A program made the position numbers and the translations under genes. A stretch of 64,000 nt of DNA from an uncultured Oleispira sp. (GTDB taxonomy: Bacteria; Pseudomonadota; Gammaproteobacteria; Pseudomonadales; Oceanobacteraceae), in contig CAJXUD010000001.1 in the NCBI GenBank assembly GCA_913061415.1, positions 124,001 to 188,000 on the forward strand. Reading direction: 5' to 3'. This document shows, piece by piece, positions 418 to 35,885 of this stretch. A model generated the notes under the pieces. It did not search any database. It was not told the origin of the DNA and saw only the letters and a program-made list of their open reading frames with translations. The first letter of the stretch is position 1, and each line of letters starts with the position of its first letter.

Positions 418-485
418 AAGTATAACCTTTGTATTTTGACGTCGCCCAAGCCGTTGTACATGCTGGGCATTATTATGTAATTATT

Positions 486-504
486 AGTTGTTATATTAAC
501 AACT
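486..504. promoter_or_regulatory. Perfect palindrome in the phosphatase/helicase intergenic region
   Basis: AGTTGTTA and TAACAACT form 8-base perfect arms around a 3-base centre (TAT). It lies between the divergent phosphatase and helicase genes, just downstream of the candidate Pho box when read on the minus strand. It has no T-tract, so an operator is more likely than a terminator. The binding protein is unknown. Confidence 0.4.
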
Positions 505-523
505 AGCATATTAATTATGTTTT

Positions 524-541
524 ATGACAATTTAGTTACAT
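524..541 (-). promoter_or_regulatory. Candidate Pho box for the alkaline phosphatase gene
   Basis: On the minus strand the sequence reads ATGTAAC-TAAA-TTGTCAT. Compared with the PhoB direct-repeat consensus CTGTCAT-N4-CTGTCAT, the second half matches 6 of 7 and the first 4 of 7. Spacing and AT-rich linker are as expected, and AT-rich sequence that could serve as a -10 follows. Position upstream of a phosphatase supports the call; the weak first half limits it. Confidence 0.4.
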
Positions 542-637
542 GCGATTAATTACTGACGCTCATATCGCAAAAGCAGTCATAGCTCTAGAACCCGCTATGC
601 TGTAAGCTGCACCCCCGCTAAATCAAGTGAGTTTCCT

Positions 638-2035: not shown

Positions 2036-2089
2036 AGATTAGTTGTATTGTGACGGCTTGTTTTGACTGCTTGCATGAAAATGCTTAAG

Positions 2090-2119
2090 AATCCCTAGCG
2101 AATGCTGGGGATTTTTTTT
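2090..2119 (+). terminator. Rho-independent terminator after rhlE
   Basis: AATCCCTAGC pairs with GCTGGGGATT (10 base pairs, one G-U) around the loop GAAT, followed by an uninterrupted run of T to 2119. It lies 55 bases after the helicase stop codon. Confidence 0.9.
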
Positions 2120-2180
2120 CCTGTCTCTTTTTACTTACAGCCTTTTATTGACAACATAATGAAGCATAAACGACAGGCAT

Positions 2181-2214
2181 AAAAAAAGGCCAAACCTTTC
2201 GGTTTAGCCTTTTT
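2181..2214 (-). terminator. Terminator of the cold-shock gene
   Basis: A near-perfect inverted repeat (AAAAAGGCCAAACC / GGTTTAGCCTTTTT, one mismatch, loop TTTC) has A and T tracts on both sides, so it can stop transcription from either side. It lies about 50 bases beyond the cold-shock stop codon, which is probably its main client. Confidence 0.88.
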
Positions 2215-2262
2215 CAAACTTGAACTGCTTAATCTCTAAGAGGCTAAGCCGTTACCTTTAAA

Positions 2263-2469
2263 TTATAAAGGTACGATGTTCTCAGCTTGTGGGCCTTTTT
2301 GACCTTGAGTTACAGTGAACTCAACTTTTTGGCCTTCAGCAAGAGTTTTAAAGCCAGTACCTTGAATAGCACGGAAGTGAGCGAAAACGTCAGGGCCGTT
2401 TTCTTGCTCGATAAAACCAAAGCCTTTAGATTCGTTGAACCACTTAACTGTACCAGTTGTAGTAGACAT
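2263..2469 (-). CDS. Cold-shock domain protein, CspA family
   Basis: A 68-residue single cold-shock domain. RNP1 (KGFGFI, residues 15-20) and RNP2 (VFAHF, residues 28-32) are both present, so it should bind single-stranded RNA or DNA as an RNA chaperone. Start is GTATCC-free and set by AGGAT just upstream of the ATG. Consensus-like promoter elements about 150 bases upstream give it a long 5' leader, the usual arrangement for thermoregulated csp genes. Which E. coli Csp it corresponds to cannot be decided; it may be growth-phase rather than cold controlled. Confidence 0.95.
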
Positions 2470-2642
2470 AATAGTATCCTGTAAATTCAGAAAAAAATTG
2501 CGGCTCTAATGAGCCATTATGGCTGAAGTGCTGCCAATAATTTATGAAAACAGGACGAGATACAGGATATCGAAACGGTGTACATAAAACTAAGACTAAC
2601 TTTCAGACGTCTGTATTCTATGCTGTTTATATTCATTGTCAA
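2470..2642 (-). promoter_or_regulatory. Promoter and long 5' leader of the cold-shock gene
   Basis: Reading on the minus strand, TTGACA (2637-2642) is followed after 16 bases by TAGAAT (2615-2620), a good sigma-70 promoter that puts the transcript start near 2608 and leaves a leader of about 140 bases. The leader contains a palindrome (AGCCATAATGGCT) near its 3' end. Long structured leaders are characteristic of cspA-type mRNAs. The rest of the gap up to 2774 shows only a weak 7-base inverted repeat. Confidence 0.65.
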
Positions 2643-2774
2643 TACTATTTAAATATTTTCTTGTCGGATTTATGGTTTTATTTACGCTTACTCAAAGACC
2701 TTGAGGCCACTATCACCGCAATGTCACCGCCAATTTCACAGTGACATAAGAATGGCCCGAAGGCTTAAAAATCA

Positions 2775-3266
2775 CTAACCGCAAAGATACGTTCCGGTTC
2801 CAACCGCGATCAATTCATCTTGCTCGTTCTTCAGCTCCATCCGCGTCACCGCTACCTTGTTACCAATTCTTAGCAGTGTCGCACCAATGATGAATTCCTT
2901 ACCTTTACCTGGCTGAAGGAAATCGACACGCATATCAATCGTCCCCAATTTGGCTAATGTTTTCGGACGCTCAGACTGAGGAACCTTATGCTCTTTCAAT
3001 CGCTGCCATGCGGCAACCATAGCCATCGCACCTCCCGTTACATCCAACGCTGTTGAAATCGCACCACCATGAAGAATACCCTGCAGAAAGTTGCCAATTA
3101 GGTCGTCTTTCATGCTCATTTTGAATTCACAATAATCTTGACTGAGCTTGCTGGGTTTTAAGCCTAATACTTTATTAAAAGGAATCTGTTCAAGAAAATT
3201 CATCGCAATATTATATTCGCTTGGGTTAAAGCCATGCGCTTCAACGGGGGTCGTTTCAATACTCAT
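2775..3266 (-). CDS. yigI: Hotdog-fold acyl-CoA thioesterase, YigI-like
   Basis: A 163-residue PaaI/hotdog thioesterase. The signature LHGGAISTALDVTGG (about residues 66-80) holds the central helix and catalytic region. The C-terminal half (LGTIDMRVDFLQPGKG, then RIGNKVAVTRMEL) closely resembles E. coli YigI as I remember it. It likely hydrolyses medium- or long-chain acyl-CoA in the cytoplasm. No signal peptide. It stands alone between genes on the same strand with long spacers, so it is probably monocistronic. Substrate is not deducible. Confidence 0.85.
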   Translation of the reverse strand: MSIETTPVEAHGFNPSEYNIAMNFLEQIPFNKVLGLKPSKLSQDYCEFKMSMKDDLIGNFLQGILHGGAISTALDVTGGAMAMVAAWQRLKEHKVPQSERPKTLAKLGTIDMRVDFLQPGKGKEFIIGATLLRIGNKVAVTRMELKNEQDELIAVGTGTYLCG

Positions 3267-3445
3267 TTATTAAACTCCTAGCTTGTAATGATAGAAGCAT
3301 GCGCTGATTGTGTTTATTGAGCTGCTAAAGTAAAAACACGTGCTCAATACTAAGTCGACATATTCTCCAAAGATTCAACACACTCAGACACAATAGAGGT
3401 ATTCTCTGGGGTAAATCGACTTGAGCTCAGGCAGCTTCTTTTTTA

Positions 3446-5587
3446 TTATAAATTTTTACGGTTATACCACCCCACTAACGCTAATAATCTGGCCGAAACT
3501 TGAGTACGTTTCCACTGCCCAGAAACAAACTTATTAGCCTCCATATACGTAGGGTAAGCATGGATAGTACCTAATACCTTGTTCAGACCCAAGCCATGTT
3601 TCATTGCCATCACAAAAACAGCAATTAGATCATCAGCCCTTGGCCCTACAATGGTTGCCCCGAGTACTTTGTCTTTGCCCGGCACGGTTAATACGCGAAC
3701 AAAGCCTATTGCTGCGTCATCAGTGATGGCGCGATCTAGATCATCCAAGCCGTATTGAGTACATTCGTAGGCAATACCTTGTGCTTTCGCGTCTTTTTCA
3801 CTGAGTCCAACACGACCTACTGCTGGACTTGTAAAAGTTGCCCACGGGATAACTCGGTAATCAGCCTTAAAGCGCTTCAAACGACCAAATAAACTATTAA
3901 CCGAAGCAAACCATGCCTCATGCGCTGAAACATGAGTAAATTGATAACCACCAATCACATCGCCACAGGCGTAAATGGTTGGGCACTCGGTCTGAAGATA
4001 TTCGTCTACGGCTAAGAAGCCATTACGATCGGTCCCTAGATCAACATTCTCTAAGCCTAAATTCTCGGTATTTCCTTCACGCCCAATCGCTAATAACAAT
4101 GCATCAAATTCAAGCACCTCACCCGTATCCAAAACGGCCGAATCACCTCCCGTGGAAGTTTTCAATTCAGTAATGGAACGACCTGACAAATGCTTTACAC
4201 CATCCGCCTTCATGGATTCGGCCACCAGCAGAGAAACATCTTCATCTTCTCTCGGCATCAAGAACTGGCCTTTATCGACCATCGTCACTTGTGACCCTAA
4301 ACGTGCAAATGCTTGCCCTAGCTCACAACCGATTGGTCCAGCACCCAGAATTAAGAGTCGCTTAGGTAATTCATTAAGCTGCCATAACGTATCAGAAGTC
4401 AGGCTATTAACTTTATCCAGCCCAGGAATATTCGGTATCCGAGGTCGACCGCCCGTCGCGATAATAATATTCGCCGCACTGCGTATTTCTGTTTCGCCAG
4501 ATGCGTGTTGAATTTCAACTTCCCAGGGTGAAAGTATGGTTGCCTGCCCCGTCGCACAAGAAACCCCTAAACCTTCATAACGCTCAATCGAATCGTGAGG
4601 TTCAATCGCTTTGATCGATTGATGAACATGCGCCATCACCTTCTCAAAATCGACAGCACCAGGCTCGCCGCTCAATAACCCCGAAAGATGACTTTTCTTA
4701 TTGTCATGAACAATTCCCGCCGCGTGAATCATCGCTTTACTAGGAACGCAGCCGGTATTTAAACAATCGCCACCCATCCTATGCTTTTCCACCAGCGTGA
4801 CCTTTGCCTTAACCGCCGAGCCTATAATTGAACTCACTAGTCCAGCGGCACCACCACCAATAACGATCAAGTTATCATCAAACTTACTCGGTTTTGCACG
4901 GCCTTTGGCGCGCTTTAGCAATGCTCTTCTGGCTTGTACTCGATTCAATACAGCTCTTGCTAACCAAGGAAAGAGAGCCAGCAGCCCTAGCGCCACTAAT
5001 AGTCCAGGGGTCATGATACCTGCTAATGAGAACCCATCCTCTTGACCAATCACTGATGCAAACTCAGCACCCGCATTCACATAAACCGCCGTGCCGGCAA
5101 GCATTCCCAGCTGACTAACCCAGTAAAAACGCCATGCAGAAATAGGCATTAACCCCATCAATAAATTAATCGCAAAAAAAGGCACTACAGGGATAAGTCG
5201 CAGAGTGAATAAAAAGAAAGGGCCATCTTTCTTAACCCCTTCGTTAATGGTTTTTAAATACCCAGAAAATTTATTTTGAACCCAGTCTTTCAGTAGCAGC
5301 CGCGACATAAGAAACGCCAACGTCGCTCCTAATGAACTAGCAAACGAAACAATCAGTAAGCCAGGGCCTAAACCAAAAATAGCCCCTGAAATAAGCGTCA
5401 TCAAGGCCGCTCCAGGAATTGACAGCGCAGCCACCAAGACATAAACAATAAAAAATAACCCCGCAGTTTTTACAGGGTCTTTTTGATACAAGGCTTGATA
5501 GGTCTCAGGCAGCAACCATTGTTCGCCTAAAAAATAAAAACCCGATACTAAGCCTGCAATTAGCCCTAGTAGTAATAATTTCTTCAT
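3446..5587 (-). CDS. VTT/TVP38 membrane domain fused to FAD-dependent disulfide reductase
   Basis: A 713-residue fusion. Residues 1 to about 220 hold a signal-like segment and several transmembrane helices of the VTT/DedA-like TVP38 family. After a basic linker, a complete pyridine nucleotide-disulfide oxidoreductase follows: FAD motif VIGGGAAGL (about residue 240), redox pair GGDCLNTGCVPSK (about 270), NAD(P)H motif LILGAGPIGCELG, the YACGD FAD motif and a dimerisation domain. The C-terminal H-x-x-E-like segment reads HAYPTYMEA. The enzyme half resembles mercuric reductase/dihydrolipoamide dehydrogenase, but no heavy-metal HMA domain or C-terminal Cys pair is present, so mercury is unlikely. 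It is presumably membrane-anchored with the flavoenzyme in the cytoplasm; substrate unknown. No partner genes adjoin. Confidence 0.85.
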   Translation of the reverse strand: MKKLLLLGLIAGLVSGFYFLGEQWLLPETYQALYQKDPVKTAGLFFIVYVLVAALSIPGAALMTLISGAIFGLGPGLLIVSFASSLGATLAFLMSRLLLKDWVQNKFSGYLKTINEGVKKDGPFFLFTLRLIPVVPFFAINLLMGLMPISAWRFYWVSQLGMLAGTAVYVNAGAEFASVIGQEDGFSLAGIMTPGLLVALGLLALFPWLARAVLNRVQARRALLKRAKGRAKPSKFDDNLIVIGGGAAGLVSSIIGSAVKAKVTLVEKHRMGGDCLNTGCVPSKAMIHAAGIVHDNKKSHLSGLLSGEPGAVDFEKVMAHVHQSIKAIEPHDSIERYEGLGVSCATGQATILSPWEVEIQHASGETEIRSAANIIIATGGRPRIPNIPGLDKVNSLTSDTLWQLNELPKRLLILGAGPIGCELGQAFARLGSQVTMVDKGQFLMPREDEDVSLLVAESMKADGVKHLSGRSITELKTSTGGDSAVLDTGEVLEFDALLLAIGREGNTENLGLENVDLGTDRNGFLAVDEYLQTECPTIYACGDVIGGYQFTHVSAHEAWFASVNSLFGRLKRFKADYRVIPWATFTSPAVGRVGLSEKDAKAQGIAYECTQYGLDDLDRAITDDAAIGFVRVLTVPGKDKVLGATIVGPRADDLIAVFVMAMKHGLGLNKVLGTIHAYPTYMEANKFVSGQWKRTQVSARLLALVGWYNRKNL

Positions 5588-23276: not shown

Positions 23277-23316
23277 GCCCATGTTAATTATTGCTTATTT
23301 ATTAATTAACGTGGGC
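23277..23316. terminator. Long hairpin between convergent genes
   Basis: GCCCATGTTAATTA (23277-23290) pairs with TAATTAACGTGGGC (23303-23316) over 14 bases with a single G-U, around a 12-base loop. It separates the GMC gene from the convergent thioredoxin-like gene and overlaps the 3' end of the latter. No T-tract. Confidence 0.6.
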
Positions 23317-23801
23317 TGAAATAATTCTAATAATTCAGCCGAGGTTAAAGCCCCCCTTAACCGCTTAACCTTTCCTTTAATCGGGAAGAAGTAACTTCTA
23401 GGTAAATCACCAAACCAACGAGCGTCGATATCATAGCGAAGCTTCTCTTCATCGGCATCTGAAAAAATCCAATTATCCAACGTCAACAAATTATATTTTT
23501 CCAATAATGTTTTTACTCGTGCCTGTTCTTCGAGCCCATCCGTATTAATAAGCGTTAATTGGTATTCAGGATACTGTTGATTTAATACTGAGACTTTTTT
23601 TAATTCCTTAATGCAGGGCGGACAATCAAACGACCAAAGAATAACAAGATGATCTTTTTTATCTTTCTCCTTAACTATTTTTTCAAAACTTCCCACATCA
23701 AATAATTTTAGATCAGTGGGCGAACTTGCCTGCACAGAATTCGGTAGGGTTACCGCGGGCAGAATTGATATAGCAAAAAGTAATACCAAAAATCGCTTCA
23801 T
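23295..23801 (-). CDS. Exported thioredoxin-like protein (TlpA type)
   Basis: A 168-residue protein with a cleavable signal peptide (about residues 1-25) and a thioredoxin fold containing WSFDCPPCIKEL (Cys at about 60 and 63) and a cis-proline segment (DLPRSYFFP). It is probably a periplasmic thiol reductant or oxidant. It lies three bases after the Asp-box protein, which has several cysteines, so keeping those cysteines reduced is a reasonable guess at its role. AT-rich, like the two genes before it. Confidence 0.87.
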   Translation of the reverse strand: MKRFLVLLFAISILPAVTLPNSVQASSPTDLKLFDVGSFEKIVKEKDKKDHLVILWSFDCPPCIKELKKVSVLNQQYPEYQLTLINTDGLEEQARVKTLLEKYNLLTLDNWIFSDADEEKLRYDIDARWFGDLPRSYFFPIKGKVKRLRGALTSAELLELFQPTLINK

Positions 23802-23804
23802 TCA

Positions 23805-25043
23805 TTATTCCCCGACAGTTTCAAAACGATAGCCTTCATCCTGAGTATGCCAACTCAAATACACAGTTTCTGAATCTTTAACCAATTGAGGATGATCGGA
23901 AGAACCTGCGGTAGTACTCACTATTTTATTTTTACTCCAGCTGATACCAGAGTCTTTCGATTCCTTCATTAAAATATCTGTTTCTTTACCATCAAATTCT
24001 TTCCAAACCAAGAAGACAGTTTGATCAATAGAAAGTACATAAGGATGCGCAGACTGCTTATCGGCTTGGCCAAAACCCATCGGCTTATAATCACCTATAT
24101 TAAAACCCGATACACTATTACCGTAAAACAATACATGATCTCCCTCAGTGTCGTTAAACCACGTAGAATGAACAATATTATTACCATCAACATCCAATGC
24201 GGGGCCGTGATGCGGGCAGCCATTAATTTTCCACTGCTCGTTGCTCAAGCGTATTTTCTTCGCAGGTTTCAAGGCCGAGCTGAACGTTATTAAACTGTGG
24301 TCACGAATTTGATTATTAACATCATTGCCATAAATATCACGCCAAGCAATCACCGGTAAATTGTTATTATCTAACGCCATAGCAATGCGACAGCACACAC
24401 AGGAGTTATCCGACAGATTTATATTTTCACTAAACGTCTTACCTTGATCAGCAGAATAACTGTAATACAAAGCACCACCAATATATTCCTGTTGCTTGTC
24501 TTTTGCGGCTTGCTGATCGCGTTTATCCAACCAACTGATAAAAACTTTGCCATCATCACTAACAACCATAGAATCAAAGCGGTGACTTATTTCCTGCAGG
24601 TCATCATTCACGGTAATAGGCTGACTGAAACTTTTACCGCCATCAACAGAGCGACTAAAACGAATATTTCCGGTATAGGGTTTATTCAAAGACTGTGTCC
24701 ATGAAATATAAATATTGCCGGTATTATCCAACTGAATTTTTGCGCGATTCTCAGCGCGAGCAGCAATTTTTTCAGGGGCACGATTCACAATAGAAGGGGC
24801 TGAGTAACTCTGACCTTGATCACTAGAATACTGAACATAAACATGACCAGCAAAGACCCAAGCCAACCATAACTTACCATCAGGTCCAAAGCTCGCAGAA
24901 GGTGCCTTAGCGCACTTGAGCGAGGCAATGGTGCAAGCAACTCCATTCACTCCCTTGCCTGTAGCAGAAGCACCATGCTGCATCGCATGGCTACTGCTAA
25001 AGCACAGTAAGATGATGAACAAAAATGATGCTAACCTGAACAT
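23805..25043 (-). CDS. Exported Asp-box/BNR (sialidase-like) protein with conserved Cys/His motifs
   Basis: A 412-residue protein with a signal peptide (about 1-20) and a probable six-bladed propeller with Asp-box repeats (for example SSDQGQSY, SVDGGKSF, SADQGKTF, SKDSGISW). It carries NSCVCCR (about 215) and CPHHGP (about 275), which look like metal-binding or redox sites, and an N-terminal Cys pair. I recall similar sialidase-annotated proteins with these two motifs, of unknown function. The arginine triad of true sialidases is not evident, so glycosidase activity is doubtful. It sits between a TonB receptor and a thioredoxin-like gene in one probable operon. Confidence 0.8.
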   Translation of the reverse strand: MFRLASFLFIILLCFSSSHAMQHGASATGKGVNGVACTIASLKCAKAPSASFGPDGKLWLAWVFAGHVYVQYSSDQGQSYSAPSIVNRAPEKIAARAENRAKIQLDNTGNIYISWTQSLNKPYTGNIRFSRSVDGGKSFSQPITVNDDLQEISHRFDSMVVSDDGKVFISWLDKRDQQAAKDKQQEYIGGALYYSYSADQGKTFSENINLSDNSCVCCRIAMALDNNNLPVIAWRDIYGNDVNNQIRDHSLITFSSALKPAKKIRLSNEQWKINGCPHHGPALDVDGNNIVHSTWFNDTEGDHVLFYGNSVSGFNIGDYKPMGFGQADKQSAHPYVLSIDQTVFLVWKEFDGKETDILMKESKDSGISWSKNKIVSTTAGSSDHPQLVKDSETVYLSWHTQDEGYRFETVGE

Positions 25044-25073
25044 AAAATTAACCTTTTATAAATTGATACTAAA

Positions 25074-27155
25074 TCAAAATGAATAACTAGCAGATACATA
25101 CGCAGTGCGTGGCATACCTGGCGAGTATTCAAACGTTTCAGGATTACCATAAGCCGCTGGTTTATAAGTTGAATTAGTCGCATACGTTTTATCTTCTAAA
25201 TTTAAAATACGCGCACTCACTTTAAACTCAGGGGTTACGGGGTAATTAAAACGAATATTTAATAACTGATGACCTTTATACGTTTCCGTATTCGCTTGGT
25301 CCATCCAGTATTGCCCTAAATGAGAAAGCTCTAACTCAACCTTACCACCGTTTAATTGGCTAGGATGATAACCTAAAGCAACATTACCAATATCTCTCGG
25401 CGCCGCTTCTAATTGATTATCACTATAGTCTGTTGTCGAATTCGGTTTCCAATCTTCGTAGGTGAATTCGGTATAGGCATAAGAAACTGCAAGATCGATA
25501 TCGTTACTCAACGGTGCTGTTAAACCTGTTTCAATGCCTTGGTGTAATGTTTTACCCGCGTTCATTGTTTCACTACTACCATCAGCATGCTTGAAGGTTA
25601 AAATATCATCTTCCTTCACCATGTAATAAACCGAGATTTCATAATTCACTTTGCTAATGGTTTTTCCACGCAAACCAATCTCATAGTTATCCACTTTTAC
25701 CGGATCAAGCTTAACCGTATTAGTCGCCTTTCCTTGACGGAATAACTGACTCTGCGACGGCACTCGAAACGCATGGCGATAAGAAGCAAACGTATTTAAT
25801 TGATCGTTAATTGCATACGTCATACCCAATTTAGGACTTAAGTGTTGATACTCAACATCGGTATCTTCAGGGCGTCTATGATTGCCGGTATCGATATCCG
25901 TTAAATTATTTTCATAGTCATAACGCATGTGATCAAAACGCAAACCCGCATTCACTCTTAACTTATCGGTCGGCGAGGTTTCAATATGGGCATAAGGCGA
26001 GATAGACGAAAAGGTCACGTCATAGTCATACAGTTTTTCTTTAACTGTATAATCAACAAAATAGTTACCTTCTTTTGTCACATCAATTTTATTTTGATCC
26101 ATCGAACCTGGGCTGTAATCAATATCGGTTCCAACAATTAAACGCGTACGCATTGGTGTGAAATCTTGACGATATTTCATCATCACACCCGCCGACTTGT
26201 TTTCCGTTTTATACGTATTCGGATCGTAACTTAACGACCAGTTCGGTAATAACTCCATGCTGTTATAACGGAAGTAAGGGGTAATGCTATAAAGACTCGC
26301 ACCCACTTCTTTTTCGAACGCACTGGATAAACGTAACGATTCAACTTTGCGCATAGAGATAGGCGTGTAATTACGTGTTGGATGATTTTTATAATCGTCT
26401 TCTAGCAAACGCGAAGAACCCGCTGTTTGTTGATCAATGTTTGAAAAATTCAAAACGGTTTTAACTTTAGTACCGTTATCTAAAAAAGAATCCAAACGAA
26501 CATTCGCACTTTGACGATCGTATTCGGTCGAGTCTCTCCAGCCATCGGTATGAGTCAGGTTTAAATCGGCACGAATGCCATGATTCAAACTCGCAGTTCC
26601 ACCCCCTAATAGCAAACGCTGCCAACCAAAGCTGCCTACCTCTAAACTCACATCGCCCTCAGTTTCTTCTGGTGCAGCCTTAGTACTCACGTTAATAACC
26701 GCTGCCATCGCATCGCTTCCATGCAAAGCACTGCCTGGGCCTTTGCTGACTTCAATGCCCGCAGACTGAGGCACGTTAATCTCATACAACGCATTGTGAT
26801 TAAAGAAACCCGTAGAGCGAGTCGGAATACCATCTTCCAAATAAAGATACACAGCACCGGTCGTAATCGGCTGGCGAATTGCTGTCATGTGGCCTTCGCC
26901 ACCCGTAACATTCACATGCACACCCGGCATGCGATTTAATACTTCAGAAGGATGACCTGGTTGTAAAAACTCGATGTCTTCTTGGCTAATCTGACTGGTA
27001 CTGGCAGAAGTTTCTGACTTTAATGCGGCTTCGCGCGTATCGGTAATCGTAACAGGCGCAAGTTCAACTTCGTCGTTATTAACTTGTGCGGCGAGTGTAA
27101 AAGAAGGGTATAAAAGGGTAGCAATGGCTAACGCTAATGGCTGCTTATGTTTCAT
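25074..27155 (-). CDS. TonB-dependent outer-membrane receptor
   Basis: A 693-residue outer-membrane receptor with a signal peptide (MKHKQPLALAIATLLYPSF, cut near AQA-like LAAQ), a TonB-box region (APVTITDTRE), a plug domain (VLNRMPGVHVN to VINVSTK) and a beta-barrel ending in aromatic YSF. I start at 27155; the reading frame extends 31 residues upstream, but that part is not signal-like. Substrate is unknown. It heads a probable operon with the Asp-box and thioredoxin-like genes. No histidine-rich loops or clear Fur or Zur site were seen; a 12-base palindrome lies upstream at 27249. Confidence 0.9.
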   Translation of the reverse strand: MKHKQPLALAIATLLYPSFTLAAQVNNDEVELAPVTITDTREAALKSETSASTSQISQEDIEFLQPGHPSEVLNRMPGVHVNVTGGEGHMTAIRQPITTGAVYLYLEDGIPTRSTGFFNHNALYEINVPQSAGIEVSKGPGSALHGSDAMAAVINVSTKAAPEETEGDVSLEVGSFGWQRLLLGGGTASLNHGIRADLNLTHTDGWRDSTEYDRQSANVRLDSFLDNGTKVKTVLNFSNIDQQTAGSSRLLEDDYKNHPTRNYTPISMRKVESLRLSSAFEKEVGASLYSITPYFRYNSMELLPNWSLSYDPNTYKTENKSAGVMMKYRQDFTPMRTRLIVGTDIDYSPGSMDQNKIDVTKEGNYFVDYTVKEKLYDYDVTFSSISPYAHIETSPTDKLRVNAGLRFDHMRYDYENNLTDIDTGNHRRPEDTDVEYQHLSPKLGMTYAINDQLNTFASYRHAFRVPSQSQLFRQGKATNTVKLDPVKVDNYEIGLRGKTISKVNYEISVYYMVKEDDILTFKHADGSSETMNAGKTLHQGIETGLTAPLSNDIDLAVSYAYTEFTYEDWKPNSTTDYSDNQLEAAPRDIGNVALGYHPSQLNGGKVELELSHLGQYWMDQANTETYKGHQLLNIRFNYPVTPEFKVSARILNLEDKTYATNSTYKPAAYGNPETFEYSPGMPRTAYVSASYSF

Positions 27156-27248
27156 TTTCAACTTCGCTATAAAGGACTGAGTGAAAGGAATTGAACGCAG
27201 TCTATAGAGGCCGTTGAGATTTGAAAATGTGGCACATTGTCGCACCAC

Positions 27249-28673: not shown

Positions 28674-29348
28674 TTAATTAAATTGTAATGAACAAACATG
28701 CTCTACAGGCGTTGAAATTGAAATGCTTCTGAGAATCTCACCTGAGTCAATATCAATTCTATGTGCTTTGATCTCCCTATTGCTATCTTCGACGACAACT
28801 AAAAAATTATCACATATTTTAGGTTTTACGACTCTCCAACTGAGATCAACTTTCCAAGATTTTTGAACCGAATAACAGCTACCTATATTTTCACTAGTCT
28901 TCATTAGTGGAGTTGGCTTGCAGGCAATGATGAACTCATTGCTATCAACAATGATAGAGTTTGACTGAAGCTTTATAGAAGATTCAACCCAAGTGCTATT
29001 TTCATATAATTCCACCCTACCTAAGTCATCCAAAAGATAAGTATGCTTCTTATATAAAAAGAACTGCTGAACCTTCCTATTTCTCTTCCATGAACTTCTC
29101 ATAGTTAACTCATTATCAACAAATACAGCATAAGGATGATTTATACCTTTATTATCTATTTTGTAACCCGCAATAAAAACACCTTCACCATTAGAAAATC
29201 CACTGTATGCGCTTTGTAAGCCAGTCTTCAATTGCTTACCACTCATAGTTACAGAGCCGTCATAATTCCAGCTAAGATCGGCACTTGAACATGCCGATAC
29301 AAATATTAGAAGGAAAAGGAGGGGGGGGGTTGATTTATAAATTTTCAT
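28674..29348 (-). CDS. Putative lipoprotein with C9 tract in its signal peptide
   Basis: A 224-residue protein with a lipoprotein signal peptide ending in FVSACSS (Cys20). I recognise no domain; the sequence suggests a small beta-rich exported protein. I start at ATG 29348; the frame extends upstream but the lipobox fixes the start. The gene overlaps the end of the transpeptidase-like gene by 14 bases, so the two are probably translated together. Codons 7-10 (Thr-Pro-Pro-Leu) are written in a run of nine C, a length prone to slippage that would switch the gene off. One possible role is an immunity protein for the upstream enzyme (inference). Confidence 0.8.
   Translation of the reverse strand: MKIYKSTPPLLFLLIFVSACSSADLSWNYDGSVTMSGKQLKTGLQSAYSGFSNGEGVFIAGYKIDNKGINHPYAVFVDNELTMRSSWKRNRKVQQFFLYKKHTYLLDDLGRVELYENSTWVESSIKLQSNSIIVDSNEFIIACKPTPLMKTSENIGSCYSVQKSWKVDLSWRVVKPKICDNFLVVVEDSNREIKAHRIDIDSGEILRSISISTPVEHVCSLQFN
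29321..29329. repeat. Homopolymer G9 (C9 in the lipoprotein coding strand)
   Basis: Nine consecutive G on the given strand lie inside the signal-peptide codons of the minus-strand lipoprotein gene. Gain or loss of one base would shift the frame after about ten codons. It is by far the most conspicuous G/C homopolymer I noticed in the window. Confidence 0.9.
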
Positions 29349-29970
29349 AATATTTATGCACTGTAAAAATGGTTCCTGGCTTGAAAGCTCCGATAGCAAA
29401 TAACTGATCTCGTTCTCTAGGTTTTAGATGAATACACCCGTGTGAATGAACCATATTAATAGGAAGCCTTCTAATTTCTTCAGCTTCATTTGCCTGTGTT
29501 GTATGGAACATTTGCCCTGAGAGTTGTTCATTAGCATCCAATTTTCGATTACCATTTGAATCTTTAAACCATCTGATAGCAACAGGCCCGAAATCATTAA
29601 ACACCCATTTCTTGGGAACAATCCTCAGAGAATATAAATTAAAATACAAATCGATTATGTCAGACCTGGAAATTTTATGATCATTCTTTATTGAACCCCA
29701 CTTATTCTCGGGTAGTTGATACCAAACATCATCCTGAGAGGGTTTATCAAGCAACTTGGTTCCCCAAGTTATACGAGACAAAGGCCATGTATTTGTTCGA
29801 TAGGCGTGAGATTTATCAATAATATACTGACCTGGCCAAGTCGGTTCCTCTGCCATGCGCGCATCATTTCCAATAGTCGATGGTCCTCCCCACGCTTCAA
29901 AACGCCCATGAATTCTTGTTTTGTCTTTAGCAACAAGAAGGTTTCTCCCTGGATAAAAGTGTAATTCCAT
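29335..29970 (-). CDS. L,D-transpeptidase-like (YkuD-fold) protein without signal peptide
   Basis: A 211-residue protein. The C-terminal region has the L,D-transpeptidase catalytic signature: a histidine at FHTTQ (about 160) and, about 20 residues on, VHSHGCIHLKPRER with the nucleophilic cysteine (about 185). The N-terminal part (LHFYPGRNLLVAKD, HGRFEAWGGPS) is the usual start of the YkuD fold. No signal peptide or membrane segment is visible, unusual for an enzyme acting on periplasmic peptidoglycan. GGAAA precedes the ATG. It overlaps a downstream lipoprotein gene. Alternatives are a secreted antibacterial effector delivered by a type VI-like route, or a protein exported by an unrecognised signal. 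Confidence 0.82.
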   Translation of the reverse strand: MELHFYPGRNLLVAKDKTRIHGRFEAWGGPSTIGNDARMAEEPTWPGQYIIDKSHAYRTNTWPLSRITWGTKLLDKPSQDDVWYQLPENKWGSIKNDHKISRSDIIDLYFNLYSLRIVPKKWVFNDFGPVAIRWFKDSNGNRKLDANEQLSGQMFHTTQANEAEEIRRLPINMVHSHGCIHLKPRERDQLFAIGAFKPGTIFTVHKYYENL

Positions 29971-30138: not shown

Positions 30139-30927
30139 CTACCTCCTAACCGAATTAAATATCTGACTCATCACAAACAAACTAGCAGCAGAAACCACAA
30201 TCGTCGGCCCTGTTGGGGTATCCCAAATAAACGAAAAAGCCATACCAGCACACACAGAAATCATACCGATTAAACTCGCCAACATCGCCATTTGTTCAGG
30301 ACTTTTTGCCAAAGGTCTTGCCGCAGCGGCAGGTATAATAAGCAACGCACTGATTAATAATACACCAACAATTTTCATCGAAATCGCCACGACTAACGCG
30401 AGTAATAAAACCAGCATGGCTTTTAATCGTTTTACTGGGTATCCATCTATCGCGGCTAATTCTTCACTCACGGTCGAGGCTAATAACCCGCGCCATTGCC
30501 AGATCAATAATCCAATCACTAATGAACCACCCGCAAAGATCCAAAGTAAATCGTTCTGGTTTACCGCAAGTAAATCACCAAACAGATACGCCATTAAATC
30601 GATACGCACATTATCGAAAAAGCTTAATACAACTAAACCAATGGCGAGCGAAGAGTGCGATAAAATCCCCAATAAGGTATCGGAGGCAATGCCCGTGTAT
30701 TTATCGAGCTGCAATAAAATTAACGCTAAAACCGAGCACGAAAATATCAACGCTAGGGTTAGGTGAAGATCAAATAAAATCCCTAGGGTAATGCCTAATA
30801 ACGCACCGTGGGCGAGGGTATCGCCAAAAAACGCTAACCGACGCCATACTACTAAGCTGCCTAATGGACCTGCGGTTGCCGCAACGCCTAAGCCTGCGAA
30901 CAAGGGTAATAACCACCAACTAATCAT
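30139..30927 (-). CDS. znuB: Zinc ABC transporter permease ZnuB
   Basis: A 262-residue inner-membrane permease of the ABC-3 metal family with about seven to eight transmembrane helices and the conserved cytoplasmic coupling region (SEELAAIDGYPVKRLK, about 145-160). With ZnuC and ZnuA it imports zinc. Its start overlaps the end of znuC by eight bases, giving a coupled zur-znuC-znuB unit. Confidence 0.95.
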   Translation of the reverse strand: MISWWLLPLFAGLGVAATAGPLGSLVVWRRLAFFGDTLAHGALLGITLGILFDLHLTLALIFSCSVLALILLQLDKYTGIASDTLLGILSHSSLAIGLVVLSFFDNVRIDLMAYLFGDLLAVNQNDLLWIFAGGSLVIGLLIWQWRGLLASTVSEELAAIDGYPVKRLKAMLVLLLALVVAISMKIVGVLLISALLIIPAAAARPLAKSPEQMAMLASLIGMISVCAGMAFSFIWDTPTGPTIVVSAASLFVMSQIFNSVRR

Positions 30928-31810
30928 GTTTGTGTCCTTCGCTCTTGCTTACATTTTCGTGCGCATGCGTGCATTCTTCGCTGCCTTCGATATGGCCATC
31001 GGCACAATGTTTGTGGTCGTGGTGATGAGTATAGTGAGCCAGCTCTGGGGCGAGCTCACTTATGGGGGCAAGAGGTGCAAGTTGGTGGCCATTCTGATGA
31101 CCCTGCTGATGACCACTCTGATTACCGAAGAGTGAGTTGTACTCGTCACTGATACTGACTTGGTCGGGGTGACCTGAGCAGCACACATGGCCATTCAAAC
31201 AAATCACGCGATCGGTTTGCGCCATTACTAAGTGTAAGTCGTGTGACACTAATACGATGCCGCAGCCTAATTCGTTGCGCAGTTCTGGCAATAGCTGATA
31301 CAGCTCGCGCTGACCTTGAATGTCGACCCCTTGTACGGGTTCGTCGAGCACCAATAGATGCGGTTCTATTAATAAGGCGCGGGCTAATAAAACACGCTGC
31401 CATTCACCACCGGAAAGTCGCTGCACGGGCTGTTTGGCTAATGCGGTAATCGATAGGCGTTCTAGCCATTCTTGTACGCGTTCTTTGCGAGCACCGGGGG
31501 CGAGCATAAGAAAGCCAGTGACCGATAACGGTAGACGATCGTCTATACGTAATTTTTGCGGCATGTAGCCGACTCGCAAGCCTTTGCGGCGGGTGATCTT
31601 ACCGGAGTCTGCGGTATGTAAGCCTAGCAAGATGCGCAATAAGCTCGATTTACCACAGCCATTGGGGCCGATGATGGTGACAATTTCGTTTTCACAAATA
31701 GCTAGATCAATGTTTTGTAATACGTGGCGATCGCCCCAAGTTTGGTTGATGCCTTGGGCGCGGACGAGGGTTTCCGCTTTGGCTTTAACGACAACTAACT
31801 CAGGGTTCAT
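30920..31810 (-). CDS. znuC: Zinc ABC transporter ATP-binding protein ZnuC with His-rich tail
   Basis: ATPase of the zinc importer: Walker A GPNGCGKSS (about 50-58), signature LSGGEWQR (about 141), Walker B LLVLDEPVQGVD, and H-loop VSHD. After the ATPase fold (about residue 230) the protein carries a 65-residue tail with roughly a dozen histidines, including GHQQGHQNGHQ, HHHDHKH and HAHE, which could sense or buffer zinc and is absent from E. coli ZnuC. The start overlaps the zur stop codon. Confidence 0.95.
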   Translation of the reverse strand: MNPELVVVKAKAETLVRAQGINQTWGDRHVLQNIDLAICENEIVTIIGPNGCGKSSLLRILLGLHTADSGKITRRKGLRVGYMPQKLRIDDRLPLSVTGFLMLAPGARKERVQEWLERLSITALAKQPVQRLSGGEWQRVLLARALLIEPHLLVLDEPVQGVDIQGQRELYQLLPELRNELGCGIVLVSHDLHLVMAQTDRVICLNGHVCCSGHPDQVSISDEYNSLFGNQSGHQQGHQNGHQLAPLAPISELAPELAHYTHHHDHKHCADGHIEGSEECTHAHENVSKSEGHKHD

Positions 31811-32313
31811 GCGTTTTGGCCTTTAGAGCACTTTTTAGAACACTCTTTAGAACATTGGGGGCAAGTGCCAACGACTTCGGTGATTTGTGTTTCTACTTCG
31901 AAGCCTTGAGTTTTTGCAGCATCTGATAGCGAGGTAAACCAAGACTGCACATCCATCTCGTGAGCTTTACCGCACACCTTACAAATCAAGAAGCAGCTTT
32001 GATGTTCGTGCCCAGGGTGTGAACAACCTATAAATGCATTAAGCGAAGCTAGGCGATGAACTAGGCCTAGGTCGAGCAAGAAATCGAGGGCGCGATACAC
32101 CGTTGGAGGTGCAGAGTTAAAGCCATCTGCCGCTAAGGCAGGCAGTAGATCGTAGGCACCCATGGGTTTGTGGCTCTGCCATACTAGTTCTAATACGCGC
32201 TTGCGTATGGGTGTTAAGCGTACGCCTTGCTCGGTACAGAGCTTGGTCGCTTGTTGCAGTGCGGTATTGATACAACCTTGATGGTCGTGCGGGTGGTAAG
32301 CTGAAGCAGACAT
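31807..32313 (-). CDS. zur: Zinc uptake regulator Zur (Fur family)
   Basis: A 168-residue Fur-family repressor of zinc uptake. The winged helix (RLTPIRKRVLELVW, then PPTVYRALDFLLDLGLVHRL) and the structural zinc cysteines (CKVCG, about 121-125; CPQC, about 153-156) are present, as is the H-rich regulatory site near SHPGHEHQS. The C-terminus ends in an unusual Cys/Lys repeat (CSKECSKKCSKG). It is first in the zur-znuCB unit and divergent from znuA, with a Zur-box-like palindrome between them. Confidence 0.94.
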   Translation of the reverse strand: MSASAYHPHDHQGCINTALQQATKLCTEQGVRLTPIRKRVLELVWQSHKPMGAYDLLPALAADGFNSAPPTVYRALDFLLDLGLVHRLASLNAFIGCSHPGHEHQSCFLICKVCGKAHEMDVQSWFTSLSDAAKTQGFEVETQITEVVGTCPQCSKECSKKCSKGQNA

Positions 32314-32356
32314 AAAACAAGGTGCTCTAATCAGTTAACTCGTTTATAAAAAATAA

Positions 32357-32382
32357 CAGATCGTAAAAATATCAGATCGTAA
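32357..32382. repeat. Direct repeat in the zur-znuA intergenic region
   Basis: CAGATCGTAA occurs at 32357-32366 and again at 32373-32382, 16 bases apart, inside the shared promoter region. It may bind a second regulator or form part of the zur promoter. Confidence 0.5.
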
Positions 32383-32388
32383 CAAAAT

Positions 32389-32411
32389 TAAAGGTTATAA
32401 TATTACAATTT
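32389..32411. promoter_or_regulatory. Candidate Zur box overlapping the znuA -10
   Basis: The core GTTATAATATTAC is one base away from the perfect palindrome of the gammaproteobacterial Zur box (GTTATANTATAAC) with AA/TT-rich flanks. It contains TATAAT (32396-32401), which would place the znuA transcript start about 27 bases before the ATG, so a bound repressor would cover the promoter. Confidence 0.7.
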
Positions 32412-32435
32412 GACTCAATCTGCTTATTTAAATTT

Positions 32436-33302
32436 ATGAAAAAACGTATTTCTACTCTGCTATCAACGTCATTAGTACTGCCTGTCATGCTGGCTACAAG
32501 TCTATATTCTAGTGCTGCTAATGCACGAATCTTGGTATCGAATAAGCCTTTAGCGCTGATTGCTGCGGCAACTTATCCTACAGAGCAAATCGATATCCTT
32601 GTTCCCGATGGTATGTCTCCGCACGACTACAGCTTGCGACCGTCCGATATTGGCAAGATTCGCCAAGCAGATAAGATTTTATGGGCTGGCGACCATATGG
32701 AGCCGTACTTGGCCAAGTTTGCGGCAGAATCTGCACGCTCTAAGTCCAATTCAATCGAATGGCTGGATGCTACTCATCTTATGGAAGACATGGGTCTCTA
32801 TGGTAGTGATCCACATATTTGGCTTTCTCCTGAATTAGCCATAGAGATCAGCCAGCGCATCAGTGCTTGGAACCCTACAGATGTTGAGCAAGCGAAAAAA
32901 GATCATCAAGCTTTTGCTAAACAGCTAACCGCTTTGGTAGAAGAAAGTAAGACAACCCTTGCTCCACTAAAGCAGTCTGGCTTTTTTGTTTTTCACCAAG
33001 CCTATGACTATTGGTTTCAGGCCATTGATATTAAGCAGCTAGGGGCCTTCACCCTGTCACCAGAGCGTAAGCCTGGTGCTCGCCATATTCAGAACATGCG
33101 CAACCAGCTTAAAAATAAAGAAGTGGCGTGTGTGCTGTCTGAGCCACAATTCAGCCCTGCACTTATAGAGACCGTGGTTAATGGTTTAGCCATTAATCGT
33201 GGCGAGCTAGACCCTCTTGCTGGTAGTACTACGTTAAGTAAAAGTGCTTATATTGATTGGTTAAGCGCAATGACGGCGACGTTATCTGAGTGCCTAAAAT
33301 AA
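32436..33302 (+). CDS. znuA: Zinc ABC transporter substrate-binding protein ZnuA
   Basis: A 288-residue periplasmic zinc-binding protein with a signal peptide (about 1-30). Ligand histidines appear in GMSPHDYSL (about 63), SDPHIWLSP (about 128) and FFVFHQAYDYW (about 192), and a late Glu/Asp site follows. The charged His-rich loop common in ZnuA is absent; the His-rich segment is instead on ZnuC. No ribosome site precedes the ATG. It is transcribed divergently from zur-znuCB. Confidence 0.94.
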   Translation: MKKRISTLLSTSLVLPVMLATSLYSSAANARILVSNKPLALIAAATYPTEQIDILVPDGMSPHDYSLRPSDIGKIRQADKILWAGDHMEPYLAKFAAESARSKSNSIEWLDATHLMEDMGLYGSDPHIWLSPELAIEISQRISAWNPTDVEQAKKDHQAFAKQLTALVEESKTTLAPLKQSGFFVFHQAYDYWFQAIDIKQLGAFTLSPERKPGARHIQNMRNQLKNKEVACVLSEPQFSPALIETVVNGLAINRGELDPLAGSTTLSKSAYIDWLSAMTATLSECLK

Positions 33303-33423: not shown

Positions 33424-34788
33424 ATGTCTACTGCAGAAGCGTTATTACATTCGTTACGACAGCAAACAAAAACAGGGCATACGCATAGCGATGAACCTGA
33501 CTCTCTGCCCAATCGCTATCTTCGTATACGCCAACAGTCATTAAAGCTCTGCCAAGAACTTGAGATTGAAGATTTCGAGTTACAAGCCGCTGATTTTGTC
33601 AGCCCTATAAAATGGCACCTTGCTCATACCAGTTGGTTTTTCGAAACATTCATCTTAAAAAACATCTCTGATTACCGTATTTTTCATCCTCAGTTCGAAT
33701 ACTTATTTAACTCTTATTACAATGCGGTAGGAAAACAATACCCTCGAAATAAACGCGGCATAATGTCTCGCCCGACTGTGAGTGAAGTTAAATCTTATCG
33801 TCAGTATATTGATCAAAAAATATTAGCCTTATTCGACAGTGACGATGAGATACTTGATGAATACAAAGAGTTAATTGTTTTAGGGTTAAACCACGAACAA
33901 CAGCATCAAGAATTGATGCTTACCGATCTTAAATATAACTTATCGTTTAATCCGCTATACCCTATTTATGCCAAAGCAAAATTTCCTGAAGGTCACGAGC
34001 CTAATAGCGAACAAGCTGATTGTATTATGCCATTGGATTTTATTGAATTTGGTGGTGGCATTTATAATTTTGGTAAGAAAGGTAATGGATTCAGTTTTGA
34101 TAATGAAACGCCCAGACATCAAGCATTGATTAATGATTTCCGTTTAGCTAATCGCTTAATTACGAATGCTGAATATTGTGAATTTATCGATAATGGCGGT
34201 TATCAAGATTCATCTCTTTGGTTAGCGGATGGTTGGAGCTGGGTAAAAAATAATAATATTACGGCACCTCTTTATTGGCACTTAGAAAGTGATGATGGCC
34301 AACCGTCTCAACGCTATGAATTTCGGTTGACGGGTTATGGACAACTGCACCCACAGCAACCGGTAACGCACGTCAGTTTTTATGAAGCAGATGCTTTTGC
34401 TCGCTGGGCTGGTAAGCGTTTGCCGACCGAGTATGAGTGGGAAGTCGCCAGTAAGAAGCGTGAAATTAAAGGAACCTTTGTTGAGTCTTTAAGTTTTCAT
34501 CCCCTAATGATTAATCCCGCTAGCAAGCATTATCCCAAAGATGGCATGAAACAATTATTTGGCGATTGCTGGCAGTGGACACAGAGTTCTTATGCGCCCT
34601 ACCCACAATTCAAAACACCTGAAGGCGCAGTCGGCGAATACAACGCTAAATTTATGTGCAACCAAATTGTTTTACGGGGTGGGTCCTGTGTTTCTCCCAG
34701 AGATCATTTACGCACAACGTATCGCAACTTTTTTTACCCGCAAGATCGCTGGCAATTTACCGGTATTCGTTTGGCCGAGGATGCTTAA
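33424..34788 (+). CDS. egtB: Ergothioneine biosynthesis sulfoxide synthase EgtB
   Basis: Non-haem iron enzyme that joins a sulfur donor to N-trimethylhistidine (hercynine) with oxygen. The 454-residue protein has an N-terminal DinB-like domain with iron-ligand histidines (HLAHTSWFFE, about 66; NHEQQHQE, about 158-165) and a C-terminal formylglycine-generating-enzyme-like domain (GGGIYNFG to VLRGGSCVSPRDH, TGIRLA). AAGGAG lies upstream. egtD follows 74 bases later. No egtA or egtC is nearby, so cysteine rather than gamma-glutamylcysteine may be the donor, or those steps are encoded elsewhere. Confidence 0.94.
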   Translation: MSTAEALLHSLRQQTKTGHTHSDEPDSLPNRYLRIRQQSLKLCQELEIEDFELQAADFVSPIKWHLAHTSWFFETFILKNISDYRIFHPQFEYLFNSYYNAVGKQYPRNKRGIMSRPTVSEVKSYRQYIDQKILALFDSDDEILDEYKELIVLGLNHEQQHQELMLTDLKYNLSFNPLYPIYAKAKFPEGHEPNSEQADCIMPLDFIEFGGGIYNFGKKGNGFSFDNETPRHQALINDFRLANRLITNAEYCEFIDNGGYQDSSLWLADGWSWVKNNNITAPLYWHLESDDGQPSQRYEFRLTGYGQLHPQQPVTHVSFYEADAFARWAGKRLPTEYEWEVASKKREIKGTFVESLSFHPLMINPASKHYPKDGMKQLFGDCWQWTQSSYAPYPQFKTPEGAVGEYNAKFMCNQIVLRGGSCVSPRDHLRTTYRNFFYPQDRWQFTGIRLAEDA

Positions 34789-34862
34789 CATCAGGATGCA
34801 TTAAAAGACTGATCATTTAATTTTGGCCTAGATATATTACGTATAATAAAGGATTTATCGAT

Positions 34863-35885
34863 ATGAATGATATTCAGCAGCAGACATCGTTTGATTTATC
34901 AAACCGTAAAAGATTACGTTTTTATGATAACCAACCTGCTGCTGAAGATATTTTATCTGAAGTTATTTCTGGTTTAAGCCAAAATCAGAAAGTACTTCCC
35001 GCTAAATTATTTTATGATCATATCGGTTCTAAATTATTCGAAGCCATCACCCAACTTCCTGAGTATTATCCGACTCGCATCGAAATAAATTTATTAAGAA
35101 AGCATCATAAAGAAATTGCGGATTTGTTAGATAATGATGTTTGGTTATTAGAATATGGCAGTGGTGCAAGTTTAAAAATACGTTTGCTATTGCAAGCTAT
35201 AAAGCCAAATTGCTACGTCCCTATGGATATTTCAAAAGATTTTTTATTATCATCTTCAGAAAGCCTCATCGATGATTATCCTTGGCTGAATGTGTATGCC
35301 GCTTGCGTTGATTATTCTCAGCCGGTACGTCTACCTGCCGACATGGCAACCAGCGCGCAAAAACTGGGGTTCTTCCCTGGCTCTAGCATTGGCAACTTTG
35401 CCCCTCACGAAGCGCAAATATTTTTGCAAGGTGTGCGTAAAACCTTAGGCAAAGACGGCGCGATGTTAATTGGCGTTGATTTAATAAAAGATACGCAGGT
35501 ATTAGAGGCTGCTTATAATGATTGCCAAGGCGTAACAGCGGCATTCAACTTGAATATTTTACATAACATTAATAGCGTACTAGGCACTCAATTAAACGCT
35601 GATCACTTTGAGCACCGAGCAATTTATAGCGAAGAAAAAAATCGTATTGAAATGCACCTAGTGAGCTTAATGGATCAGATCGTTAATATTTCTGATGCCA
35701 ATGTAACGGATAGTCCTGCTAAAAATATTATTTTAAAAGCAGGGGAATCGATTCATACCGAAAACTCTTACAAGTATTCTAAACAAAGCTTTACTGATTT
35801 AGTTGAAGGGGCAGGGTTTGAAGTTCGTGAGCATTGGTCAGACGAAAAAGATTATTTTTCTCTATTTTATTTAAGTTGCTGTTAG
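34863..35885 (+). CDS. egtD: Histidine N-alpha-methyltransferase EgtD
   Basis: SAM-dependent enzyme that trimethylates histidine to hercynine, the first step to ergothioneine. The 340-residue protein has the family features: LPEYYPTRIE (about 60-69), SAM-binding LLEYGSGASLK (about 95-105), FFPGSSIGNF (about 168-177) and the C-terminal SYKYSKQSF. AAAGGA precedes the ATG. It is paired with egtB in one unit, enough for a short ergothioneine pathway, which would defend against oxidants. Confidence 0.95.
   Translation: MNDIQQQTSFDLSNRKRLRFYDNQPAAEDILSEVISGLSQNQKVLPAKLFYDHIGSKLFEAITQLPEYYPTRIEINLLRKHHKEIADLLDNDVWLLEYGSGASLKIRLLLQAIKPNCYVPMDISKDFLLSSSESLIDDYPWLNVYAACVDYSQPVRLPADMATSAQKLGFFPGSSIGNFAPHEAQIFLQGVRKTLGKDGAMLIGVDLIKDTQVLEAAYNDCQGVTAAFNLNILHNINSVLGTQLNADHFEHRAIYSEEKNRIEMHLVSLMDQIVNISDANVTDSPAKNIILKAGESIHTENSYKYSKQSFTDLVEGAGFEVREHWSDEKDYFSLFYLSCC

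Follow-up and report, generated by a model that had tools for sequence, protein, structure and literature searches.

A conserved operon for a TonB receptor, an Asp-box propeller with invariant cysteines and a thioredoxin-like protein as a probable copper-acquisition module in an uncultured Oleispira sp.

A stretch of 64,000 nucleotides from an uncultured Oleispira sp. (assembly GCA_913061415.1, contig CAJXUD010000001.1, positions 124,001 to 188,000; hereafter the window, to which all positions refer) carries three adjacent genes that we propose to form a cell-envelope copper-acquisition module, a reading to which sequence comparison leads us to give a probability of roughly three in four. All three lie on the minus strand. 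They encode, in order of transcription, a TonB-dependent outer-membrane receptor of 693 aa (25074..27155), an exported Asp-box propeller of 412 aa (23805..25043), which has seven blades by register and the motifs C215-x-C217-C218-R219 and C276-P-H278-H279-G-P, and an exported, putative TlpA/ResA-like thioredoxin-fold protein of 168 aa with a CPPC motif (23295..23801). An earlier note, made from the letters of the window alone, had described three tightly spaced same-strand genes; the gaps of 30 bp (receptor-propeller) and 3 bp (propeller-thioredoxin-like) confirm this, and the order recurs in relatives. Each of the three proteins starts, by eye, with a Sec-type signal sequence. The receptor gene runs from an ATG at 27155 to a stop at 25074, and this ATG fits as the start better than a longer GTG frame because orthologues of 689-693 aa align from its first residue.

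We infer the following route for the metal. The receptor would carry copper, probably chelated, through the outer membrane; in the periplasm the propeller would bind the metal, most likely as Cu(I), at a Cys/His site where its central channel opens; and the TlpA/ResA-like protein would keep the cysteines of the CxCC and CP motifs reduced. Cu(II) could then be reduced or freed from its ligand, and the copper would be passed to periplasmic users: PCuAC or Csp1 at loci that also encode them, and, in the window organism, probably nitrous-oxide reductase and haem-copper oxidases.

Relatives of the propeller were collected in two sets. The first came from protein or profile searches of whole genomes in which the motif was not required, with yields of 4/55, 25/369 and 15/398 genomes (the window's own in each) at E cut-offs of 1e-3, 1e-20 and 1e-15; it came mostly from a profile (A2) whose rows carry the motif, which was therefore favoured though not required. 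The second was a motif-based scan of named contigs, of which the best 80 of 566 confirmed matches were used; these are labelled as Methylomonas, Methylobacter, Gallionella, Candidatus Nitrotoga and other, mostly uncultured, Gamma- and Betaproteobacteria. The two sets share a few contigs (e.g. L047 and L127). One of 125 proteins was dropped (<350 aa), and merging at 99.5% identity kept 120 of 124, in 118 loci.

Among the 39 first-set loci with full flanks (at least 2.5 kb upstream and at least 1 kb downstream), a TonB receptor lay on the same strand within 4 kb in 33, a thioredoxin-like gene within 2.5 kb in 35, and both partners were present in 30, the receptor and thioredoxin queries having been drawn from the same loci as those counted. 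The earlier note had placed the motif protein with a TonB receptor and named a neighbourhood survey as the test that could refute it; the survey found the linkage in most loci. With full flanks in 63 of the 80 loci of the motif-found set (the best 80 of 566 matches), a receptor was seen in 61, a thioredoxin-like gene in 41 and both in 40. The 3.65-Mb host genome holds a single match to the propeller and only 11 to the TonB-receptor barrel model (E 1e-5); a receptor linkage of this frequency is therefore far above background and, as the gene order also recurs, the three-gene grouping goes beyond chance. In addition, ExbB/ExbD-type genes neighbour the propeller in 41/118 loci.

The new element of the module is the propeller; copper-importing TonB receptors and copper-starvation operons are already known kinds. 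The motifs NSCVCCR and CPHHGP, read in the note as a metal or thiol site, are present in the 412-aa protein. Their conservation was assessed in 42 proteins from the 43 loci of the first set (window included, one truncated protein dropped), and the CPHHGP stretch is quoted from this set only because the search pattern of the second contains it. C215, C217, C218 and C276 are each found in 42/42 proteins, as are P277 and R235, with D173 and D248 in 41/42 and H292 in 40/42. Thus, the conservation of the cysteines, on which the proposal of the note had turned, is complete in a set found without requiring the motif, and that of the CPHHGP histidines holds for the most part (H278 37/42, H279 35/42); H249 and H154 are present in 31/42 and 29/42.

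The AlphaFold2 model of the propeller has a pLDDT of 86.5 and a pTM of 0.85, with low values for residues 17-33, and in structure searches it comes closest to Photorhabdus PLL-type lectins, CylK and BNR-type enzymes, with Z scores of about 25-30. The sequence contains four S-x-D-x-G-x-x-[WFY] Asp boxes. Seven starts of innermost strands were placed by hand (CAKAP, ENRAK, SHRFD, CVCCR, CPHHG, SAHPY and SDHPQ), and in the model each coincides with, or shortly precedes, the first strand of its blade. Since the motifs are in register at inner-strand starts, they are expected to encircle the opening of the central channel, a placement judged by register and not by distances in space.

Sialidases are defined by a FRIP-type motif that carries the first arginine of their triad, and their active-site residues sit where the propeller family has its Cys/His set. 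The window protein shares Asp boxes and the propeller fold with sialidases and other BNR propellers but differs from sialidases in lacking the FRIP-type motif and in scoring below the Pfam gathering cut-offs (BNR_2 26.0 against 31.4 bits, BNR 22 against 27); a search for [FYW]R[IVL]P matched 0 of the 118 members. The missing motif and the sub-cut-off scores lead us to reject sialic acid use, and the preference of the note for a metal over sialic acid is supported, the gene neighbourhoods narrowing the metal to copper. Thirty relatives listed from Roseobacter plasmids are mostly named 'sialidase family protein' or 'exo-alpha-sialidase', with one 'hypothetical protein'; for propellers with CxCC and CPHHGP, the sialidase annotation is, in our reading of the sequences, misleading. 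Within a limited library of literature, no paper was found with a BNR- or sialidase-like protein in copper uptake. The zinc metallochaperone AztD, as a periplasmic β-propeller that carries a metal, offers a precedent for the proposed role; it differs in serving zinc and an ABC-type system, and is not known to have a CxCC or CPHHGP motif.

The cargo of the module is very probably copper, judging by the genes found beside family members, because these include a pcuABCDE-like layout, DUF2946 genes, Csp1 and OprC-like genes, and the copper genes of Roseobacter plasmids. The layout is seen in g388, a genus from a different class of the same phylum (perhaps Bradyrhizobium; genomes of 5.0-10.4 Mb), where the propeller was found in 14/26 sampled genomes and lay within 4.4 kb of a DUF1775 gene in 14/14. 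The propeller is known from 18 g388 genomes, and nine of its loci there were examined, with Pfam run on representatives of the gene families. Five of the nine read receptor-propeller-TlpA-PCuAC-DUF1775-CopCD (L189 with an extra CopC-like stretch), two (L190 and L191) have the module and then DUF2946-receptor-PCuAC-DUF1775-CopCD, and two show PCuAC alone after the module. Six of the 12 g388 genomes without the propeller were examined and all six read PCuAC-DUF1775-CopCD, these loci having been selected around the DUF1775 gene, which they therefore contain by design; in four of them (L183, L184, L186 and L187), DUF2946 was confirmed in front of this series. On the evidence of gene order, the module in g388 swaps with, or precedes, the DUF2946-receptor pair of a pcuABCDE-like operon.

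The pcu operon of Bradyrhizobium japonicum is described as induced by copper starvation and containing the receptor PcuB (PMC12617631), as having a role in copper acquisition (PMC8424229) and as encoding PCuAC-like PcuC and YcnI-like PcuD (PMC12617631, PMC8424229). It resembles the locus studied here in joining a TonB receptor, periplasmic proteins and a copper chaperone in one operon, whereas the three-gene operon of the window lacks PCuAC, DUF1775 and CopCD and has the propeller and thioredoxin-like genes; PCuAC, DUF1775 and CopCD do accompany the same module in the five g388 loci. DUF2946 also immediately precedes the receptor in L156 and L164 and stands ahead of the propeller in L167, in which no receptor was found; all three loci have PCuAC. 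DUF2946 is the family of the copper-responsive leader CruR (PMC9426467). The PcuA of the type strain is, judged by layout, probably DUF2946, and because DUF2946 heads PCuAC-DUF1775-CopCD in the four propeller-less loci, the periplasmic PcuA may be a regulatory leader peptide of the CruR type and not a copper carrier.

A cluster of the copper-storage protein Csp1 neighbours the propeller in five loci (in L072, 138 bits against a cut-off of 100, PDB E 1e-16), and an OprC-like receptor cluster in 6/118; the second receptor of L072 has OprC as its nearest PDB entry (E 2e-12). These counts, like those for PCuAC, DUF2946 and RegB, are of sequence clusters whose family was checked on representatives only. 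The Roseobacter plasmid relatives, at 22-23% identity, keep CxCC and CPxxGP. Three of 64 plasmid records were viewed, all with multicopper oxidase genes around the propeller relative; P-type ATPases were seen in 2/3 of the stretches, and plastocyanin-type and mercury genes in 1/3 each.

Two further copper importers were compared with the module. OprC/NosA (TIGR01778) is likewise TonB dependent, and the dyad of the window module, described below, is shared with nosR-nosZ; NosA is tied to nitrous-oxide reductase (PMC7558416). The difference is that the window receptor matches neither TIGR01778 nor OprC, and that OprC-like receptors appear only as extra neighbours of the propeller, in the six loci mentioned. 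CrtA/BfrG of Bordetella pertussis is a TonB receptor that takes up copper in chelated form; DUF2946 often precedes its gene, and its operons sometimes include ExbBD and PCuAC. PepSY_TM genes follow CrtA in >75% of loci (PMC12914433), whereas the propeller and thioredoxin-like genes follow the window receptor. The main text of PMC12914433 does not contain the words sialidase, propeller, thioredoxin, TlpA or BNR.

Two Pfam families score over cut-off in the window receptor, Plug at 52 bits and TonB_dep_Rec_b-barrel at 147 bits. The first set comprises 42 propeller genomes, the window's own included, and 33 of the 41 others were searched with this receptor: its best match was the receptor adjacent to the propeller in 18 (17 on the same strand, one divergent) and lay elsewhere in seven, and eight gave no match at E 1e-10. 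CrtA (9RVQ) aligns with it best over residues 511-676 (E 2.5e-13). Propeller-adjacent receptors are diverse, with a median identity of 29%, and H68, H89, H120, H390, H538 and H629 are invariant only in the third of them that is window-like (33 of 94 at 40% identity or more, the window's included); that the receptors make up one coherent copper subfamily is therefore unsupported.

The profile evidence for the thioredoxin-like protein is weak (AhpC-TSA 18 bits against a cut-off of 26, with distant ResA and StoA matches also below cut-off), and the assignment was made because it has a CxxC motif and matches TlpA (E 0.0015) and ResA (E 0.0021) in the PDB. Its CPPC comes with an export signal; among its neighbouring counterparts, C..C is present in 68/68 scored and CPPC, by first match, in 31. 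A relative lies on the same strand within 2.5 kb in 36/43 first-set loci, and in both sets together none was found at this distance and strand in 32/123 loci. In six methanotroph loci (L093, L097, L099, L108, L118 and L121), DUF3450 and a long ExbB-like gene follow the propeller, as checked by family in L108, and most of the six have no thioredoxin-like gene. In L098, L104, L109, L112 and other loci of the Gallionella type, DUF4198-like (weak), NapH-type ferredoxin and DsbD_2 membrane proteins are encoded upstream of the propeller operon (families checked in L098; L112 also has a second TonB receptor). These upstream genes are perhaps an electron supply for periplasmic metal reduction.

The module should be extended upstream to include a conserved dyad, TGCGACAATGTGCCACA, at 27228..27244 on the minus strand, 72 bp upstream of the receptor ATG, which is a candidate operator of the RegA/RegR type. 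It emerged as a footprint when upstream DNA was aligned within the genus, two relatives having TGTGACAATGTGTCACA, and the window copy has one mismatch to TGYGACANNNTGTCRCA. Among 83 non-redundant loci with a full receptor gene, 33 carry the dyad TGYGACAnnnTGTCRCA upstream of the receptor, 15 exactly and 18 with a single mismatch, and three control patterns, one reversed and two scrambled, gave 0/83 each at the same tolerance. Of 464 papers matched by a text search for the dyad sequence, the 20 listed appear unrelated.

The window genome and two relatives in the genus have a further copy of the dyad ahead of nosR-nosZ (L170, L173 and L176). In L170 (G000:C11:56400-64400) it is at 3995, and NosZ (904 bits) and NosR (1101 bits) are both over cut-off. 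This suggests one regulator for nitrous-oxide reduction and the putative copper module. A third copy in all three genomes (L171, L174 and L177) heads another operon, if the start in L177 is correct. In L171 (G000:C17:12200-20200), this operon spans 103-4017 and encodes a Pfam-less protein, a Pfam-less Cys-rich SCCGGG protein, a TlpA/ResA-like protein and DUF547; one thioredoxin-fold protein passes Pfam in L171 and two in L174, and in L177 a COX3 gene stands on the opposite side of the dyad. The DUF547 operon may be a companion module concerned with copper or redox chemistry. After the propeller operon of L139 and L147 come a gene for a similar-looking protein (judged by eye) and genes for a small cytochrome-like protein and for a thioredoxin.

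The dyad fits what we take to be the RegA/RegR-type consensus, GNGRCRTTNNGNCGC. In B. japonicum, RegR binds the nosR promoter and controls nos, nor and copper-homeostasis genes, and nosR boxes such as TGCGTCAACGGCGA have variable, imperfect half-sites (PMC4064962); RegA of Rhodobacter capsulatus is reported to bind copper (PMC9147068). In 9/118 loci a RegB-type gene is found at a distance of 0.7-3.1 kb from the propeller, and the pairs in L133 and L139 and the regulator in L107 have ActS/PrrB/RegB and ActR/PrrA/RegA as best matches, below cut-off. In the window genome a single gene stands out as RegA-type, at 156 bits against a cut-off of 250, the runner-up scoring 71. A redox two-component system of the RegB/RegA type probably adjusts transcription of the module, with RegA as the candidate binder.

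At its 3' end the operon abuts a convergent oxidoreductase gene, and its 5' neighbour is a mechanosensitive-channel gene. Further upstream, genes that look by sequence like znuB, znuC, zur and znuA lie at 30139-33302, 3-6 kb from the operon. Beside them, an L,D-transpeptidase-like gene (29335-29970) falls just under its Pfam cut-off, with a parallel in 2/3 of the Roseobacter stretches, and two genes next to each other at 33424-35885 resemble, by eye, EgtB and EgtD of ergothioneine biosynthesis.

Several observations weigh against the copper reading or parts of it. The window locus has no proven copper gene alongside, its nearest metal genes being those that resemble zinc uptake, and clusters of PCuAC, Csp1, OprC-like receptors or DUF2946 occur in only 16/118 distinct loci. 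The 25 NCBIfam models that the window receptor matches at E ≤ 1 do not include TIGR01778; the receptor also fails to match OprC at E 1e-5 and has the PQQ transporter PqqU (E 2e-25) as its nearest solved relative. The two OprC-like receptors tested score 121 and 102 bits against the TIGR01778 cut-off of 472 and score higher, also below cut-off, on haem-receptor models. Deletion of PcuB in B. japonicum gave no detectable phenotype (PMC12617631). Of the 29 loci that have no thioredoxin-like match despite enough downstream sequence, 24 are labelled as Methylomonas, Methylobacter or other methanotrophs of the Methylococcales type. As to regulation, the dyad precedes the receptor with at most one mismatch in only 3/9 RegB-adjacent loci (one more has two mismatches), and it was not found before the module in g388, with at least four mismatches in 7/7 loci. 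Finally, TAT-type NosZ is over cut-off in 13 of 38 propeller genomes searched (out of the 42) and in 9/51 relatives without the propeller (Fisher p 0.087); because of these figures an obligate NosZ client is unsupported, and NosZ is probably one client in Oleispira and not a general partner.

One alternative is capture of zinc or another divalent metal, in concert with the znu-like and zur-like genes. Cys/His sites bind zinc well, and L128 also has a znuB-like cluster, about 4 kb upstream of its propeller; yet L128 is of the same genus, and it and the window are the only two of 123 loci with such a cluster, so that a zinc link through these genes is unsupported outside the window's genus. A simple palindrome scan for Zur sites found none in the zur-znuA gap itself and is hence a weak probe of Zur control. 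Copper genes recur near the module in other genera, and a thioredoxin-like partner suits a redox-active metal better than zinc; we regard zinc as highly improbable. Import of an organic redox ligand, such as a quinone-type cofactor, haem or an iron-siderophore, which the propeller would bind or process, takes its support from the receptor: PqqU/YncD, CirA and BtuB are its closest solved relatives, and its best NCBIfam score is for TonB-siderophore (161 bits, under the cut-off of 223.5). Much sequence is nevertheless common to TonB receptors regardless of cargo, the adjacent receptors are diverse while the four cysteines of the propeller are invariant, and the metal-specific partners that can be named are copper proteins. 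An organic cargo thus appears unlikely.

A role in copper defence, with the propeller sequestering or detoxifying periplasmic copper, would account for the Roseobacter plasmid relatives, whose resistance islands hold multicopper oxidase genes and, in two of the three viewed, genes for P-type ATPases; Csp1, too, can store copper. Against this, no TonB receptor is annotated in the three Roseobacter stretches (the plasmid gene tables being incomplete) and the HH of CPHHGP is absent there, whereas in the main family the partner is an importer, with ExbB/ExbD-type genes close by in 41/118 loci, and in g388 the module takes over the place of the receptor in an operon whose layout is that of a starvation operon. 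We consider defence a very unlikely function, and copper acquisition remains the preferred reading.

Within that reading, the propeller may represent a new class of periplasmic copper protein: the Cys/His site at its hub would take copper delivered by the TonB receptor, its own thiols would reduce Cu(II) to Cu(I) and so strip the chelate, and the thioredoxin-like partner would recharge them. We put this forward tentatively, at somewhat less than an even chance. If true, there would be a redox-driven step of copper release in iron oxidisers, nitrite oxidisers, denitrifiers and bacteria of the g388 type; methanotrophs would use the same step with another electron source, and Oleispira would link it to nitrous-oxide reductase. 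Bacterial copper acquisition is far less understood than copper resistance (PMC12914433). If the copper-acquisition reading is true, a widespread 'sialidase' family would turn out to handle copper at a defined site, together with partners and a candidate redox regulator, and the module would offer a candidate copper route for methanotrophs, nitrite oxidisers, iron oxidisers and N2O-reducing bacteria.

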